Assembly: GCA_024206195.1 (NCBI GenBank)
Contig: JAAGZO010000378.1
Span: 1 to 7,174 of the forward strand
From: a bacterium
GTDB lineage: Archaea > Nanoarchaeota > Nanoarchaeia > Woesearchaeales > UBA10216
Length of the DNA stretch: 7,174 bases
Direction of reading: 5' to 3'
Below are positions 1,506 to 7,174 of this stretch, piece after piece. How positions within the stretch are numbered: the first letter of the stretch is position 1; each line of letters begins with the position of its first letter. The notes below the pieces were generated by a model. That model saw nothing but the letters and a program-made list of their open reading frames with translations, did no database searches and was not told the DNA's origin. The position numbers and the translations under genes are program-made.

Positions 1506-3770
1506 CTAAAACATTAATTTCCACTGAAGCCAGTTATAAGTCTCCTCTAGGAAATTGTATTCATCTTCGGTTATTACTTCCCGCTGAGGATGTGAGTATT
1601 TTTTTCGCACTGAGTTAAACTTTGCCAACCACGAAAGCTTCTTCTCTTTTTTCACTGTTTCCATACCATGAGGAGTAAAGTATTCACCTAATATTCCCCA
1701 ATGCTTAAGAATTATGGAATTGTAATGAATTGTGTTTAGAAAATGCCAATGTGGCTCATCGGAACCTTCGTCAATACTAGCATCAGAACAGGACTTCTGG
1801 ATCTCTTTTGGGACTCCTTCAATCCACCACTTCTTCTCACCAAGTTCTTTTTTCAACATCTGTACAATAAAATCATGGATTAACGGTTCAATGTTATTAT
1901 GCCCAACCTCCCATGCAGGCTTGTTGAACACTCCACTATGTTCCTTTATCCATTGTTCCAAGCCTTCAGGACTAAACTCAGTAAATTCCTTGTGAATCGC
2001 ATATAGAAACTCCATTGTTACCTTCTCTGGTGCACCACTGCCAAAATAACTCCTGAGTTTTTTGAGGCCCTCGCTATCTAATTCCTCTACGAAATCTATA
2101 ACAGGGACAAGGTATGGTATCACTTGATCAGCCAATTCCTCTCCTGACAAATCTTCCGGATTAAGATTATCGAACTTAACCAAGTGATCCAAGATATGAT
2201 CTAATACCCTCATTGTTGCAGCAATCCCGATGTTCATAGCAATGAAACCACCTTCACCACTCCCAGTTCTCCACTGATCCTGCAATTCATCTTCTATATA
2301 TCCGAAACACTTTTTAAAAAAGGCTATAGATTTGTTGAGCGTTTCATCATACCCCACATCAGTGAGATAACCACTTTTAATAAGCTTCTTGCCCTTTATC
2401 TTCCCAAAGAAACCCATCTTGTTACTTAATCCCCAATTTGAAATGGTTTCCAGAGTAAGACATCTTGTTTCTGTCTTTTTTTCTTCAGCAAGAACAATCC
2501 TCTTATAGAAGGGACTGCTATCATCAAAGTTTAAATGCGTGAGTAGGCGAGTCTTCAAAGCTAATAGTGCTTGTCCAGCGTCATCTGATTTCCAGTTAAA
2601 ATCCGCCATGATGGATCGTAATAGATTAGTAGGGACGGATTTTTGGTGATGGTTTATATCAACAAAAATTTTGGCTTGTTCCATCTGGGGCAAATTGTGA
2701 AATGCAACTACCGGTATAGTATGATTGGACTTCGATTTTGCCCTAGAATACCCATACAACCTGTGTTGCCCATCAATAACAAATGCTGATCTGTACACCT
2801 TTGGCAAATGCAGCACTCCAAAGCTTGTCTCGGAATCATGGTCAATTACACTTGCCTGATCAAACTTAAGCTCATTCTTTTTCTTGGTCTCTATGTTGAC
2901 TATGACTGAATTAGGAAAATAACCACCACCATCAACATATTTCCCAATTTCACCAAGTCTACTCTTACTTACTAATCGTTGATATGCTTCCGAAGCTTCA
3001 ACATCACTCTCAGTTCTATGAAGAACGAAAGACATTTTTAGGAGGGATTTTGGATCGATGCTGAAGGAGTAAAAAGTATGCCCAGCAGACATTTTCCCTT
3101 TTATAGCTGGTACTCTATTTGGCAATTTGGGTATATCCTGACCTGCAAACAACTTGCCAAAAAGCTGATATTTGGCTGCATGGCCCAAGTGATCCGTCAG
3201 CTGCTCCCAATATTCGATATTGGCCTCATTGAAATAAAAGATTGAGCCCTCTTCAAGCCTTTTTCTATCATTCTCACTCAAAATGGAATTGTTGGTAGCA
3301 AAAATAAAGGCAACTCGTGGTTTACCGGTAACCATGTTCTGAGCAGCTTGGCGTAGCCCGTCTTTTATTGCGATTATTTCATTGATGTCTTTCTGATAAC
3401 TTTCCTTTTTTCTTGTGGCACATGACTTACACTCTACAAATATGATGGCTTCTTCATCAGCTGCAAATACATCGACCTTTTTAGTGAGACCAGAGGCATA
3501 CTCAACTTTGAACTGATCATCCAGATTCATATGATGAAATTCCATTTTTGCAAAAAGTGCCCACACACGATCTTGATATGCTTTCCAATGGGGCTTCTCT
3601 TTTTTCATCCGTATGCTTTTCTTATGTTTCGACGGAACAAACTCCCATCCATCATTCTCCAGTCCCAGCTTTTTTGAAGGCTTTACTGTACAGAAATCAA
3701 AAGCTGATCTTTTATTGTTAATCGTCCATGTTGAGATGTTCTCTGACTTCACTAAATCTTCGGTTTTCAT
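1506..3770 (-). CDS. PD-(D/E)XK-like / DGQHR (DndB-like) / HEPN-Swt1-like fusion protein
   Basis: A 754-residue protein with three recognisable parts. Residues about 60-190 look like a PD-(D/E)XK nuclease fold: a lysine-rich lead-in, VE (89-90), VDVFA with D100, then FVECK with E113 and K115. Residues about 225-540 form a DGQHR domain: FVIDGQHRLYG (329-340; D333-R337), followed by the companion motif FVDINHHQKSVP (369-380), as in DndB-type proteins. Those are DNA-modification-associated regulators or NTPases related to ParB. Residues about 625-750 resemble the Swt1-type HEPN domain: KKWWIEGVP (646-654), then VRKKYSHP, containing the RNase-type R-x4-H motif (R722, H727). The gene follows the methyltransferase gene after 5 bases and its Shine-Dalgarno overlaps that gene's end, so the two are almost certainly co-translated. 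Likely role, by inference: restriction or effector partner of the methyltransferase. A purely regulatory DndB-like role is the alternative. Nuclease activity is unproven. Confidence 0.85.
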   Translation of the reverse strand: MKTEDLVKSENISTWTINNKRSAFDFCTVKPSKKLGLENDGWEFVPSKHKKSIRMKKEKPHWKAYQDRVWALFAKMEFHHMNLDDQFKVEYASGLTKKVDVFAADEEAIIFVECKSCATRKKESYQKDINEIIAIKDGLRQAAQNMVTGKPRVAFIFATNNSILSENDRKRLEEGSIFYFNEANIEYWEQLTDHLGHAAKYQLFGKLFAGQDIPKLPNRVPAIKGKMSAGHTFYSFSIDPKSLLKMSFVLHRTESDVEASEAYQRLVSKSRLGEIGKYVDGGGYFPNSVIVNIETKKKNELKFDQASVIDHDSETSFGVLHLPKVYRSAFVIDGQHRLYGYSRAKSKSNHTIPVVAFHNLPQMEQAKIFVDINHHQKSVPTNLLRSIMADFNWKSDDAGQALLALKTRLLTHLNFDDSSPFYKRIVLAEEKKTETRCLTLETISNWGLSNKMGFFGKIKGKKLIKSGYLTDVGYDETLNKSIAFFKKCFGYIEDELQDQWRTGSGEGGFIAMNIGIAATMRVLDHILDHLVKFDNLNPEDLSGEELADQVIPYLVPVIDFVEELDSEGLKKLRSYFGSGAPEKVTMEFLYAIHKEFTEFSPEGLEQWIKEHSGVFNKPAWEVGHNNIEPLIHDFIVQMLKKELGEKKWWIEGVPKEIQKSCSDASIDEGSDEPHWHFLNTIHYNSIILKHWGILGEYFTPHGMETVKKEKKLSWLAKFNSVRKKYSHPQREVITEDEYNFLEETYNWLQWKLMF

Positions 3771-3775
3771 GTCAT

Positions 3776-4615
3776 TTACCTCCTCAAAACATTGGTAAAA
3801 ACATATTCTTCGATAAATCCCCGCCTAGCCTTCTTACCACCAATTAAGCTTGCTCTCGTAACACTAACCGGAGCATCCATTCTCCCAAACAATGATTCAA
3901 TGGAATCATGTTTTGCGTTCGTCAGGATATAGTACGCACCTCTACTACGGATCTTCTCAATGAATATTGCTAATCGCTCCTGATCATCCCATGAAAATAG
4001 TCGTTCATTATACTTGATGAATCCATTCTTGATATGTGTAACAGTATAAGGAGGATCTAGAAACACTAAGTCATCTTTTTTAATGTGCTGGAGCGATTCC
4101 TCAAAATCACAGCATGTGACAATCGCAGGTTTTAAGAGCTCACTAAACCGTTTCAATCGGTCGAAATCAAATAACCTTTTATAACTCTTGAATCCATACG
4201 GAACATTAAATTCACCTTTTAGATTGACTCTGTATAATCCATTGAAACATGTCCTATTCAAATATATGAATTGGGCAGCTTTCTCAACAGATGAAGTGAA
4301 TCTATAGTCTCTTACACGATAATACTCTTCCTCTGTATTATGAAATTGATTCAACAGTTGAATGAGGTAATCGAACTCATCTCGTATCTGAGTATAGGCA
4401 TTGATTAAATCCGAATTGCTATCTGAGAGGTAGGATTTGTTTTTTGGTTGCAGATTGAAAAATACGGATCCGCCACCGACAAAGGGTTCATGGTAATTGC
4501 TGAATTTTGATGGTAAGAACAGGTGTAACTTCTTCAATAACCAAGTTTTTCCTCCAGCCCACCGGAGTATTGGTTTCTCAAATCCATTATTCTTATATGC
4601 TGAGTTTGATAACAT
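3776..4615 (-). CDS. Dam-family (D12 class) DNA adenine N6-methyltransferase
   Basis: This 279-residue protein transfers a methyl group from S-adenosylmethionine to N6 of adenine in DNA. All alpha-class landmarks are present in order: RWAGGK (18-23, motif X), EPFVGGGS (43-50, motif I, SAM binding), D65 (motif II region), NRTCFNGLYRVN (120-131) and FNVPYG (136-141), DPPY (187-190, catalytic motif IV) and the C-terminal RGFIEEYVFTN (265-275). Length matches Dam and the DpnII-type enzymes (about 270-285), and the central motifs resemble GATC enzymes. GATC is therefore the best guess for the target but not shown. The ATG at 4615 has only a weak Shine-Dalgarno; the frame stays open to a TAA at 4670-4672 without another start codon. 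It forms a tight pair with the downstream DGQHR fusion gene. I leave out the symbol dam because this looks like the modification subunit of a defence module rather than the housekeeping gene. Confidence 0.93.
   Translation of the reverse strand: MLSNSAYKNNGFEKPILRWAGGKTWLLKKLHLFLPSKFSNYHEPFVGGGSVFFNLQPKNKSYLSDSNSDLINAYTQIRDEFDYLIQLLNQFHNTEEEYYRVRDYRFTSSVEKAAQFIYLNRTCFNGLYRVNLKGEFNVPYGFKSYKRLFDFDRLKRFSELLKPAIVTCCDFEESLQHIKKDDLVFLDPPYTVTHIKNGFIKYNERLFSWDDQERLAIFIEKIRSRGAYYILTNAKHDSIESLFGRMDAPVSVTRASLIGGKKARRGFIEEYVFTNVLRR
3779..3784 (-). promoter_or_regulatory. Ribosome binding site of the DGQHR fusion gene, inside the methyltransferase gene
   Basis: A full AGGAGG forms the last two sense codons (Arg-Arg) of the methyltransferase gene, directly before its TAA (3776-3778). 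It lies 8 bases before the ATG at 3770. This arrangement favours translational coupling and fixes the downstream start. Confidence 0.85.
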
Positions 4616-4773: not shown

Positions 4774-5436
4774 TTATTGGTATGGTTTTATATAACCAAC
4801 CGCTTCGATGAAATGGACGAGTACCTGAAAAGCACTATGCACAATCCTCTGGTCCATTTCAGAGTCGATTCCCTTCTCTCCATGAAAGAGGTTACACCTT
4901 ACACGGTATAACGCTGAAAGTGTATGAGGCCAGTCTAATGGAACTGGCTCTTGATTCTCCCTATGTTTTATCCAACATCTGGGTTCATATTCTTCAATCC
5001 CAGCTCTGATGTAGTGTGCTATCGTATCCTGACGATTCGTAGGGTGCCATAGTTGAGCATTCTTACGTCTAATTTCTTGTGCCTTAAATACTGGCCAGTA
5101 TTCATAGAATGCGTGTGCTGGTTCGGACACAGGTGAACTGATGTCATTGATCAACCTGTCAAAATCGCTGCAGACTTCCGGTTTTGCGGATAGAGCTTCT
5201 CTCCATTTGCGATCTGTATCAAAACCGGTAACACAGGCAGCCCAACCATTGAAGGCGATCCAAGTAAATATGAACGGTTCAAAGCTATGTGCCGGTTCAC
5301 AGTCTCGTTCTTTCCAAGCACGTCGGAACCAATTTGAAACAAGTCGCCTTCCGTCACGGTGTAAATACGGGTAACGCTGGAGATCAACTTCGTTCCCAAT
5401 ATTTTCGTTTGATATAAGCTCTCTACATATACTCAT
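4774..5436 (-). CDS. Stand-alone HEPN-domain protein
   Basis: The protein has 220 residues from the ATG at 5436, or 226 from an in-frame TTG at 5454. The N-terminal half carries FEPFIFTWIAFNGW (residues 52-65 from the ATG), a typical first-helix signature of one HEPN group. The C-terminal half has ALYRVRCNLFHGEK with the R-x4-H motif (R180, H185), which in many HEPN proteins forms an RNA-cutting site in a dimer. HEPN proteins commonly act as toxins or as effectors of defence systems. No MNT nucleotidyltransferase or other standard antitoxin lies next to it. Neither start has a convincing Shine-Dalgarno. A well-placed GGAGA instead serves an out-of-frame 14-codon ORF (5423-5467) that overlaps the HEPN start. 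It has its own candidate promoter (5482-5510), so it may be expressed separately from its neighbours. Family assignment is good; function and target are unknown. Confidence 0.75.
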   Translation of the reverse strand: MSICRELISNENIGNEVDLQRYPYLHRDGRRLVSNWFRRAWKERDCEPAHSFEPFIFTWIAFNGWAACVTGFDTDRKWREALSAKPEVCSDFDRLINDISSPVSEPAHAFYEYWPVFKAQEIRRKNAQLWHPTNRQDTIAHYIRAGIEEYEPRCWIKHRENQEPVPLDWPHTLSALYRVRCNLFHGEKGIDSEMDQRIVHSAFQVLVHFIEAVGYIKPYQ

Positions 5437-5467
5437 AATGGTTATACTTTTCAATGGATCGGTGCAT
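5423..5467 (-). other. 14-codon upstream ORF overlapping the HEPN start
   Basis: ATG at 5467 is preceded by GGAGA (5475-5479) at 7 bases and encodes MHRSIEKYNHYEYM before TAG at 5423-5425. It is in a different frame from the HEPN gene and contains the HEPN ATG (5436). Ribosomes ending here could re-initiate on the HEPN gene, limiting or coupling its translation. Alternatively it is what remains of the true HEPN start after a one-base change. If transcription starts at the candidate promoter just upstream, the GGAGA may fall at the very 5' end and the ORF would then be poorly read. Confidence 0.35.
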
Positions 5468-5531: not shown

Positions 5532-6338
5532 TCAACTAATGCGTTCGCCTGTTTTACAGTCGATTTCTGCAAGGATATTAACAATCATTGGATTACCAGT
5601 GTTTTTATTAAGGCTTACACAGTAACAATGACCATCTCTTATTGATAATTTGGAAAATATAAGATCGACATAACCGTAATACTTGCTCTTTCTTGAGATA
5701 ACTTCATATTTGTATTTATATATACTTTGAGGCCTTAAATATTCAGTAGTAATTATATGGACTAACAACCTTTGCCCTTGCATTTTTACACTACCAATTT
5801 CAACAGCTTTATCTGTCTTCTTTTTTCTAACAGATACAACAGTAAGCGGTTTATTCGTTGCACTTCTTGCTGAGCCTTTTGCCAGTTTGTCTACTGCTTT
5901 ATTATGCTCATCTTTTGAATGGCTTTGCACCCAGTTGAATTCAACAATTCTGTTTGTTCTCTTTATAGCTTTTAAAAGTTCTCTCCAAATCCCTGCGTTT
6001 TCAACAGGTCTACCTTCGCGATTTCTCCATTTGTTTTTAGACCAATTGAACAATGCCCTTGTATGGTTATCTACAACATATCTGGAATCCGAATTTATAA
6101 CAATTTTATTGAAAGAACTTAGATCGTATATTCTGCGTGCTTCCTTCAATGCCTGCATGCAAGCGTACAGTTCCATTTGATTATTGGTTGCACCTTTGTA
6201 TCCCGATTGTTCAATATCGTGACATACCTCATTACCATTATCATCTATAGTAATAAATCTTATTCCTATACCACCTTTGCGTGGACCAGAAAATGACGAT
6301 CCGTCTGTATATATATTTAATGCATCGTCAATGATCAT
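5532..6338 (-). CDS. RNase HI-type ribonuclease with an extra C-terminal domain
   Basis: RNase HI cuts the RNA strand of RNA-DNA hybrids. Residues 5-155 of this 268-residue protein match the whole RNase HI fold. The acidic catalytic set is intact: D12 (IYTDGS), E56 (NNQMEL), D84 (NSDSRYV) and D150 (VDKLA). H140 sits in the flexible loop (WVQSHS). The basic-protrusion region NWSKNKWRNREGRPVENAGIW (98-118) is also like the E. coli enzyme. E. coli RNase HI has 155 residues; here about 113 more follow. They begin with a basic linker (VSVRKKKTDK) and continue into a segment rich in alternating hydrophobic and charged residues (about 180-260) that I do not recognise. There is no N-terminal hybrid-binding domain. 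Only a weak Shine-Dalgarno precedes the ATG at 6338. The gene is visibly AT-rich. It is more likely an accessory nuclease of the cluster than the housekeeping rnhA, so I give no symbol. Confidence 0.88.
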   Translation of the reverse strand: MIIDDALNIYTDGSSFSGPRKGGIGIRFITIDDNGNEVCHDIEQSGYKGATNNQMELYACMQALKEARRIYDLSSFNKIVINSDSRYVVDNHTRALFNWSKNKWRNREGRPVENAGIWRELLKAIKRTNRIVEFNWVQSHSKDEHNKAVDKLAKGSARSATNKPLTVVSVRKKKTDKAVEIGSVKMQGQRLLVHIITTEYLRPQSIYKYKYEVISRKSKYYGYVDLIFSKLSIRDGHCYCVSLNKNTGNPMIVNILAEIDCKTGERIS

Positions 6339-6515: not shown

Positions 6516-7040
6516 TCAACTTGTTCTGATCTGGAGATTGTTGGTGATGGTTTCCCATTTGTCTTTGTATTTATCATTATCAATCAAGCCCAGTTTAATT
6601 GCCCATAGATGGGGTTTCCTTTTTTCAGTTTTTTCTTTCTCCAGTACCTGTTCCCAAGTCAACTCATGCTTTGTCTGATATTGACGTCCATACTCTTCTA
6701 CTTGAGATAACAGCATCCCTCTAATTTCAGTGTCGGAGACAATAAAATAGTTGGGACTATCAAGGTTTGAGATATCAACGAATACAAAGTCGCACAGGGT
6801 TTTCCCCTCAATTTTTTGTTGATAATCCCGCCAGTGTGAGTTCAATATGGGAAAATCCTTTTTGTCTGTACATTTTACCTGAATAGCTGTCGATATGTTG
6901 GTTTCTGGATTCAAAGCAACTATGTCATAACCTTTGGTATTCCTCGAAGTAGGCATGGCAATCAGGTTTCGTTTGGAAAGCTCTGCACAAACCAAAAACA
7001 TCCCTATATTCCCCTTAAATTGAGGTTCTATATTGCTCAT
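6516..7040 (-). CDS. Small PD-(D/E)XK nuclease-fold protein
   Basis: The protein has 174 residues from the ATG at 7040. Residues 8-60 show the layout of a small PD-(D/E)XK-fold family: a helix with GNIGMFLVCAEL (E20), a basic strand (SKRNLIAMPTSRNTKGYD), then GYDIVALN with D39 and, 14 residues on, AIQVKC with Q54-V-K56. A Q-x-K ending in place of E-x-K is common in Holliday-resolvase-like and other accessory nucleases of this fold. The C-terminal third (about 120-165) is charged and contains HLWAIKLGLID; I do not recognise it. The ATG at 7040 is chosen over an upstream in-frame start at 7079 because GGGAGG (7046-7051) lies 5 bases before it. The longer version would also overlap the preceding gene. 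The gene follows the partial gene at the right edge by 14 bases, so it is in an operon with it. Specific substrate unknown. Confidence 0.75.
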   Translation of the reverse strand: MSNIEPQFKGNIGMFLVCAELSKRNLIAMPTSRNTKGYDIVALNPETNISTAIQVKCTDKKDFPILNSHWRDYQQKIEGKTLCDFVFVDISNLDSPNYFIVSDTEIRGMLLSQVEEYGRQYQTKHELTWEQVLEKEKTEKRKPHLWAIKLGLIDNDKYKDKWETITNNLQIRTS

Positions 7041-7045
7041 ATTGT

Positions 7046-7051
7046 CCTCCC
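7046..7051 (-). promoter_or_regulatory. Ribosome binding site deciding the start of the PD-(D/E)XK gene
   Basis: GGGAGG, 5 bases before ATG 7040, in the 14-base gap after the stop of the preceding gene. It argues against the start at 7079. Confidence 0.8.
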
Positions 7052-7054
7052 TTA

Positions 7055-7174
7055 CTATTCTGGTATAACCCCCGTACACCGCCAGTTGATCTCTGCAGTC
7101 TTATCATCAATATACACAACACAGGCAGGGTTACAGCCTTCCTTATCTATGTCAAGGTCAATCCACCATGTGCC
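7055..7174 (-). CDS. C-terminal end of an unrecognised protein (5' part beyond the right edge)
   Basis: The frame is open from the window edge to a TAG at 7055-7057 and gives 39 residues, including GTWWIDLDIDKEGCNPACVV (first 20) and ending in CTGVIPE. It holds three cysteines, two tryptophans in a row and many acidic residues. I recognise no family. The case for a real gene is the frame kept open to the edge and the 14-base gap, filled by a good Shine-Dalgarno, to the next gene on the same strand. That spacing is typical of an operon, so its product may share a role with the PD-(D/E)XK protein. Confidence 0.55.
   Translation of the reverse strand, partial: GTWWIDLDIDKEGCNPACVVYIDDKTAEINWRCTGVIPE

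Follow-up and report, generated by a model that had tools for sequence, protein, structure and literature searches.

Proteins with a DGQHR domain are known beside phosphorothioate and deazaguanine DNA modification systems, and their role there is debated. An association of the domain with GmrS and with the ParB/Srx fold has been described (PMC4619093), and DndB is discussed as a regulator and possibly also as an NTPase or nuclease (PMC10853773, PMC12839542). HEPN domains located in restriction-modification (R-M) loci have been argued to act as a second line (PMC3710099). Here we describe a gene pair in which a DGQHR domain stands between two nuclease domains and next to an adenine methyltransferase (MTase). 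The pair is found on contig JAAGZO010000378.1 of assembly GCA_024206195.1 (Woesearchaeales), and the complete stretch of 7,174 nucleotides that was analyzed is called the window below. Comparison with related loci shows that the two genes form a conserved module whose link is to adenine methylation, not to one particular enzyme.

Both genes are encoded on the minus strand, as are all features of the pair given below. The first (3776..4615) yields a D12-class (Dam/DpnM-type) N6-adenine DNA methyltransferase of 279 amino acids (aa), and the second (1506..3770) a fusion protein of 754 aa that joins PD-(D/E)XK, DGQHR (ParB/Srx-like fold) and HEPN domains. The MTase gene runs from 4615 to 3776 and the fusion gene from 3770 to 1506, leaving a gap of 5 bases; an AGGAGG Shine-Dalgarno sequence (3779..3784), the likely ribosome site for the fusion gene, is formed by the two sense codons that precede the stop of the MTase gene. 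This arrangement had already been pointed out in the first-pass annotation of the window and is borne out by the sequence. The identification of the two products as a Dam-family MTase and a nuclease-DGQHR-HEPN fusion also holds, based on profile matches, folds and motifs. As is typical for type II R-M systems, a putative endonuclease gene adjoins the MTase gene.

The N-terminal part of the fusion has a PD-(D/E)XK nuclease fold (residues 61-189, 3204..3590) with both the D and the E-x-K expected of this fold, namely D100 (3471-3473), E113 (3432-3434) and K115 (3426-3428). The DGQHR domain core with its ParB/Srx-like fold covers residues 225-377 (2640..3098), with the motif itself at residues 333-337 (2760..2774), and the fusion matches TIGR03187 (DGQHR) at 164.9 bits against a cut-off of 58.85. 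At the C-terminus a HEPN domain (residues 612-754, 1509..1937) carries R722 (1605-1607) and H727 (1590-1592) as R-x4-H, within the R-x4-6-H pattern of HEPN RNases. Judged by fold and motif, both predicted nuclease domains are real. One relative (P0108) is longer, with 983 aa, and has approximately 230 additional N-terminal residues without a Pfam match.

A scan of genome contigs yielded 418 relatives of the fusion, and the analysis was carried out on the best 80 of these 418. Three loci (L001, L002 and L072) have no useful upstream sequence, so that 77 were scored for adjacency. In 62 of the 77 a D12 gene is located immediately upstream of the fusion on the same strand (one of these is a remnant). 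The D12 profile identifies 59 of them, including the remnant of a mere 82 aa in L006, and for 54 of these 59 pairs the gap is at most 20 bases or the genes overlap. The other three (L021, L036 and L045) represent a second kind of D12, called by Pfam for L021 and L036 and by clustering with them for L045. A D12 gene anywhere in the locus is present in 70 of 77 cases, again including the remnant: it is located two genes upstream with a DpnII gene in between (L058, L068 and L079), adjoins a split fusion (L012), lies downstream (L056 and L063), is divergent (L075) or is found 2.6 kb upstream (L057). The 80 loci add up to 1,380 kb, in which the D12 profile matched 67 open reading frames (ORFs), one per locus. 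Among viral sequences of IMG/VR, a D12-type gene adjoins the fusion in five of nine loci (in L082 the D12 is in two pieces).

Because the 80 loci are the nearest relatives, a separate draw of genomes was made by phylum. At E 1e-40 the fusion was detected in 3/300, 2/394, 0/397 and 0/397 genomes, or 5/1,488 overall with the centre genomes excluded. In each of the five new loci an adenine MTase lies directly upstream on the same strand. This is a D12 enzyme in three (L096, L098 and L099) and an MT-A70 enzyme, from a family unrelated to D12, in two (L094, 1.9e-29; L095, 1e-28). As a control we considered ten DGQHR genes without the fusion architecture from seven genomes of a different draw: none has a D12 gene within the approximately 1.5 kb covered to either side (shorter near contig ends), nor was one found on their contigs. 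Taken together, census and control therefore show that the link is strong, that it concerns adenine methylation and not one enzyme, and that it is, as far as sampled, special to this fusion family. Conserved adjacency in other genomes, on which the first-pass annotation had made its proposal depend, was thus checked and is present. The two-gene unit travels through many unrelated microbes; cultured relatives that have it include Paenibacillus macerans and Maribellus sp., and Cognataquiflexum aquatile is a relative without the MTase.

The MTase of the window scores above the D12 profile cut-off and contains the catalytic motif DPPY (D187-Y190, 4046..4057, minus strand), which is placed by sequence and by alignment to DpnM (2dpm) and Dam (2g1p). 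DPPY or DPPF is present in 75 of the 76 MTases compared (window included), the exception being the L006 remnant. Among solved structures, that of DpnM from the DpnII system is nearest (5.4e-47), followed by E. coli Dam (approximately 2e-31). Positions in contact with the bases in EcoDam correspond to R18, F124, N125, L127, R129 and P139; apart from R for K at the first, these residues are as in DpnM, and the contact positions are conserved in the MTase alignment. Relatives of the window MTase are adjoined by DpnII enzymes. Given this agreement in the contact positions, GATC is the likely target. A single D12 gene was found in five of seven searched genomes that have the pair.

The fusion and its MTase do not always group alike. 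In the tree of the fusions, L047, whose MTase is an ordinary paired one, is grouped with L058, L068 and L079, but the MTase of the latter three groups with DpnM. The contents of these three loci (D12 gene, DpnII gene, fusion and N6_N4 methyltransferase) amount to a DpnII operon enclosing the fusion, a call made by Pfam for L058 (DpnII 1.9e-94) and by clustering for the other two. Similarly, four fusions (L044, L048, L059 and L060) are placed among Bacillota and their MTases with L020 and viral contigs. The MTase partner has likely been exchanged repeatedly, as judged from two quick trees with some long branches.

The alignment of the fusion comprises 85 proteins: that of the window, 79 from genome loci and five from viral loci. 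D, E and K of the nuclease are unbroken in 68 of these, and R and H of the HEPN domain are both kept in 54 of the 83 that can be assessed. The DGQHR motif is unbroken in 85 of 85, and for that reason the simplest reading would be that it is the part of the fusion that cannot be spared. We also observed that C114 (3429-3431), between the catalytic E and K, is conserved in all 85 proteins, including the 17 with broken D/E/K.

Eight of the 80 loci (L042, L043, L049, L051, L054, L065, L070 and L077) contain a DISARM-like cassette of four genes, which are arranged ahead of the MTase in one tight run and encode a UvrD-like helicase, DrmA, DrmB and a NERD-helicase. The identity of the cassette was tested for L042 (DrmA 8.5e-132, DrmB 1.2e-53), and the other seven were assigned by clustering. 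Within seven genes of the fusion no such cassette was seen in the other 72 loci, some of which are on short contigs. The eight DISARM-linked fusions form one clade, and in all of them D/E/K and R/H are both broken with DGQHR kept. Both motifs were scored in 83 fusions, that is these eight and 75 others, two more being unscorable for HEPN. Of the 75, 45 have both motifs, 21 have D/E/K alone, nine have HEPN alone and none has lost both; three of the nine HEPN-alone cases carry K to R and may still work. In two of the census loci (L098 and L099) E is replaced and R and H are retained. The simplest reading of this pattern would be that the fusion must retain one or both nucleases in working form, except where DISARM-like genes provide that function. 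HEPN R/H seems to have been lost once in a large, mostly Bacillota clade (L022-L082), and D/E/K is kept in 21 of the 29 scored fusions of this clade that are without R/H.

What could such a pair do? The explanation we rank first, and to which we give just short of an even chance, is an anti-invader module of two genes whose action is gated by the methylation of adenine and in which the host mark is protective. Based on homology, the Dam/DpnM-type enzyme would methylate adenines of the host, most likely those in GATC, which is probably also the site on which gating depends. The fusion would scan DNA and read its methylation state through the DGQHR domain, which would act as a nucleotide-binding switch of the ParB/sulfiredoxin-like kind. 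Where DNA lacks the host mark, the switch would open and the N-terminal PD-(D/E)XK nuclease would cut that DNA, and the C-terminal HEPN domain would cut RNA as a second or last-resort arm. The module, nameless so far, would most likely serve virus defence. A protective mark would agree with the order of the genes, with the settings in DpnII and DISARM-like loci and with established R-M logic. The first-pass annotation had likewise ascribed R-M logic to the pair, and its proposal is supported in part: the conserved pairing with an adenine MTase and the nuclease domains hold up, and plain R-M logic is less well supported in view of the intact fusions without MTase and the differing kinds of MTase partner.

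Several observations indeed weigh against a protective mark. Seven loci (L007-L011, L013 and L050) have a fusion with both nuclease motifs unbroken and no MTase in the stretch covered; cutting of unmarked DNA by such a nuclease should be toxic there. A D12 search of the genomes of L007, L008, L009 and L013 found none, and in the genomes of L010, L011 and L050 a D12 is located elsewhere. Some of the seven loci belong to incomplete bins, a transposase gene is located just upstream in L007, and six of the seven have N6_N4 methyltransferases. Such intact fusions would tend to argue against plain restriction-modification. Partners from differing MTase families are also awkward for one fixed recognition sequence; the second kind of D12 (L012, L021, L036, L039, L045, L056 and L057) is without the GATC-type residues. 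Furthermore, 17 of 85 fusions have a broken D/E/K; nine of them do not belong to the DISARM clade, and in three of these nine the change is K to R. That no double loss occurs apart from the DISARM-linked loci is weak statistically (P 0.042, with rows treated as independent though they are related), and the HEPN loss is a single event on the fusion tree.

Part of this would be accounted for by licensing as in SspE, which we rank second and regard as rather unlikely. Here the DGQHR domain would read N6-methyladenine (m6A) of the host, nucleotide turnover would open the protein, and the nucleases would hit unmarked invader DNA or cellular RNA; an unmethylated host would leave the protein closed and harmless. 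Both the seven intact fusions without MTase and the service of MTases from different families would follow. According to PMC9646914, SspE has a DGQQR NTP pocket that is stimulated by its modification on host DNA, and full-length SspE alone is reported not to be toxic; a review adds that SspE appears to arrest growth (PMC12707154). However, fusions without MTase should decay if the mark were needed, yet a five-member clade of them retains all motifs. In addition, the fusion has no Pfam match to DUF262 or DUF1524 at E up to 1, and in DpnII systems the mark is protective.

Ordinary type II restriction-modification, with the fusion as a GATC-specific endonuclease, the extra domains incidental and DGQHR only binding DNA, we consider improbable. 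The gene order, the tight spacing and the D12 partner are as in DpnII-type systems, and the PD-(D/E)XK fold would suit an endonuclease. Nevertheless, the invariant part is DGQHR (85/85) and not the nuclease motif (68/85), a DpnII gene already adjoins the fusion in three loci, and intact fusions occur without any MTase. Least probable is a regulatory pair outside defence, in which the DGQHR protein controls the methylation level set by the MTase as proposed for DndB (which has been claimed to be a negative transcriptional regulator, PMC10853773): the gate is retained where both nuclease motifs are lost, but both are present in 45/83 scored fusions and at least one in 75/83, the pair is located within DpnII and DISARM-like loci, and its occurrence is patchy (5/1,488 genomes).

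Beyond the protective-mark module itself, a broader reading can be put forward, with more doubt than confidence. DGQHR might be a general switch for DNA marks, which is here extended to m6A, giving an m6A-gated and perhaps m6A-licensed effector. MTase and nuclease parts would be exchangeable around an invariant gate, with D12, DpnM-type or MT-A70 enzymes as writers and with attack by the fused PD-(D/E)XK, the fused HEPN or a DISARM-like machine. If true, the pair would bring attack on DNA and on RNA together under one methylation check in compact form. Compared with the phosphorothioate and deazaguanine systems, the two-gene m6A version is far easier to test, having one writer with a standard mark and one reader-effector. 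Natural variants exist without the writer, without either nuclease motif, or with the gate lent to DISARM-like machinery.

Three neighbouring ORFs of the window, all on the minus strand, were also inspected. A 226-aa ORF (4774-5454) shows by eye a HEPN-like R-x4-H stretch (RCNLFH). Its best Pfam match has an E-value of 0.21 and PADLOC DzbB matches at 0.027 over the same stretch, and no counterpart was found near the fusion in L001-L089. The ORF at 5532-6338 encodes an RNase HI-like protein (PF00075, 3.6e-30 over residues 6-156) with approximately 110 additional C-terminal residues. The third, of 187 aa (6516-7079), has a D...IQVK stretch that is PD-(D/E)XK-like by eye and matches no family at an E-value of 0.05 or below. 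Two alphaproteobacterial plasmids (L090, 5863-12361; L092, 5875-12579) carry a relative of the fusion, with no D12 annotated in the region covered. Near it lie a further, small DGQHR gene together with a radical SAM protein and a protein that binds ATP (resembling HSP90/GHKL in L092), possibly another modification system. Dam occurs near other DGQHR proteins in Zymomonas (pZZM405; L102, 1142-4804) and on a Roseateles plasmid (L104, 3965-6515), from the organisms that gave the best plasmid matches to the window MTase; these neighbourhoods also contain a 440-aa protein without assigned function and a 157-aa hydrophobic-looking protein.

How does the pair relate to known systems? The best matches of the fusion in PADLOC-DB 2.0.0 are DpdB (7.6e-22) and DndB, both on the DGQHR part, and no model in that library spanning the three-domain protein matched. 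The DGQHR domain family is common to DndB, DpdB and the fusion, whereas the latter has additional nuclease and HEPN domains. Its scores are far below the cut-offs of both systems (38.8 bits against 328 for DndB, TIGR03233; 72.8 against 300 for DpdB, NF041060), and the other four ORFs scanned contain no Dnd or dpd component, in agreement with the first-pass annotation. DISARM resembles the module in that, in eight relatives, the pair is the last part of an operon that also contains homologues of DrmA and DrmB. However, no DrmA or DrmB is present among the window ORFs scanned, so that the window pair is not a DISARM system, and the nuclease motifs are degenerate in the eight DISARM-linked fusions. 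With DpnII-type R-M operons the pair shares DpnM as nearest solved MTase relative, and the fusion adjoins a DpnII gene in L058, L068 and L079; nonetheless, the window is without a DpnII endonuclease and the fusion without a DpnII Pfam match.

SspABCD-SspE likewise combines modification enzymes with an effector that joins a DGQ(Q/H)R nucleotide-binding domain to a nuclease (PMC9646914). Its mark is phosphorothioate and its effector DUF262-DUF1524 (PMC12707154), against m6A by one D12 enzyme, a TIGR03187 DGQHR, PD-(D/E)XK and HEPN in our pair; lacking both DUF matches, the fusion is not a member of GmrSD/SspE. In the accessible parts of the literature searched, which did not extend to subscription papers, REBASE or bioRxiv, we found no account of a PD-(D/E)XK-DGQHR-HEPN protein with a D12 MTase as its partner. 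The module had been put forward as undescribed, and the defence libraries and literature searched contain no matching system, but the claim has to be narrowed: ParB-HEPN (Swt1-like) fusions such as Saro_3948 were tabulated in 2013 as mostly active (PMC3710099 Table 1). In the part of that source available, no PD-(D/E)XK domain or adenine MTase partner is described for Saro_3948. A relative of our fusion is located on Novosphingobium plasmid pNL1, and the Saro_3948 tag could not be mapped to it. Summarizing, the module is real and is best called a variant of modification-coupled restriction.

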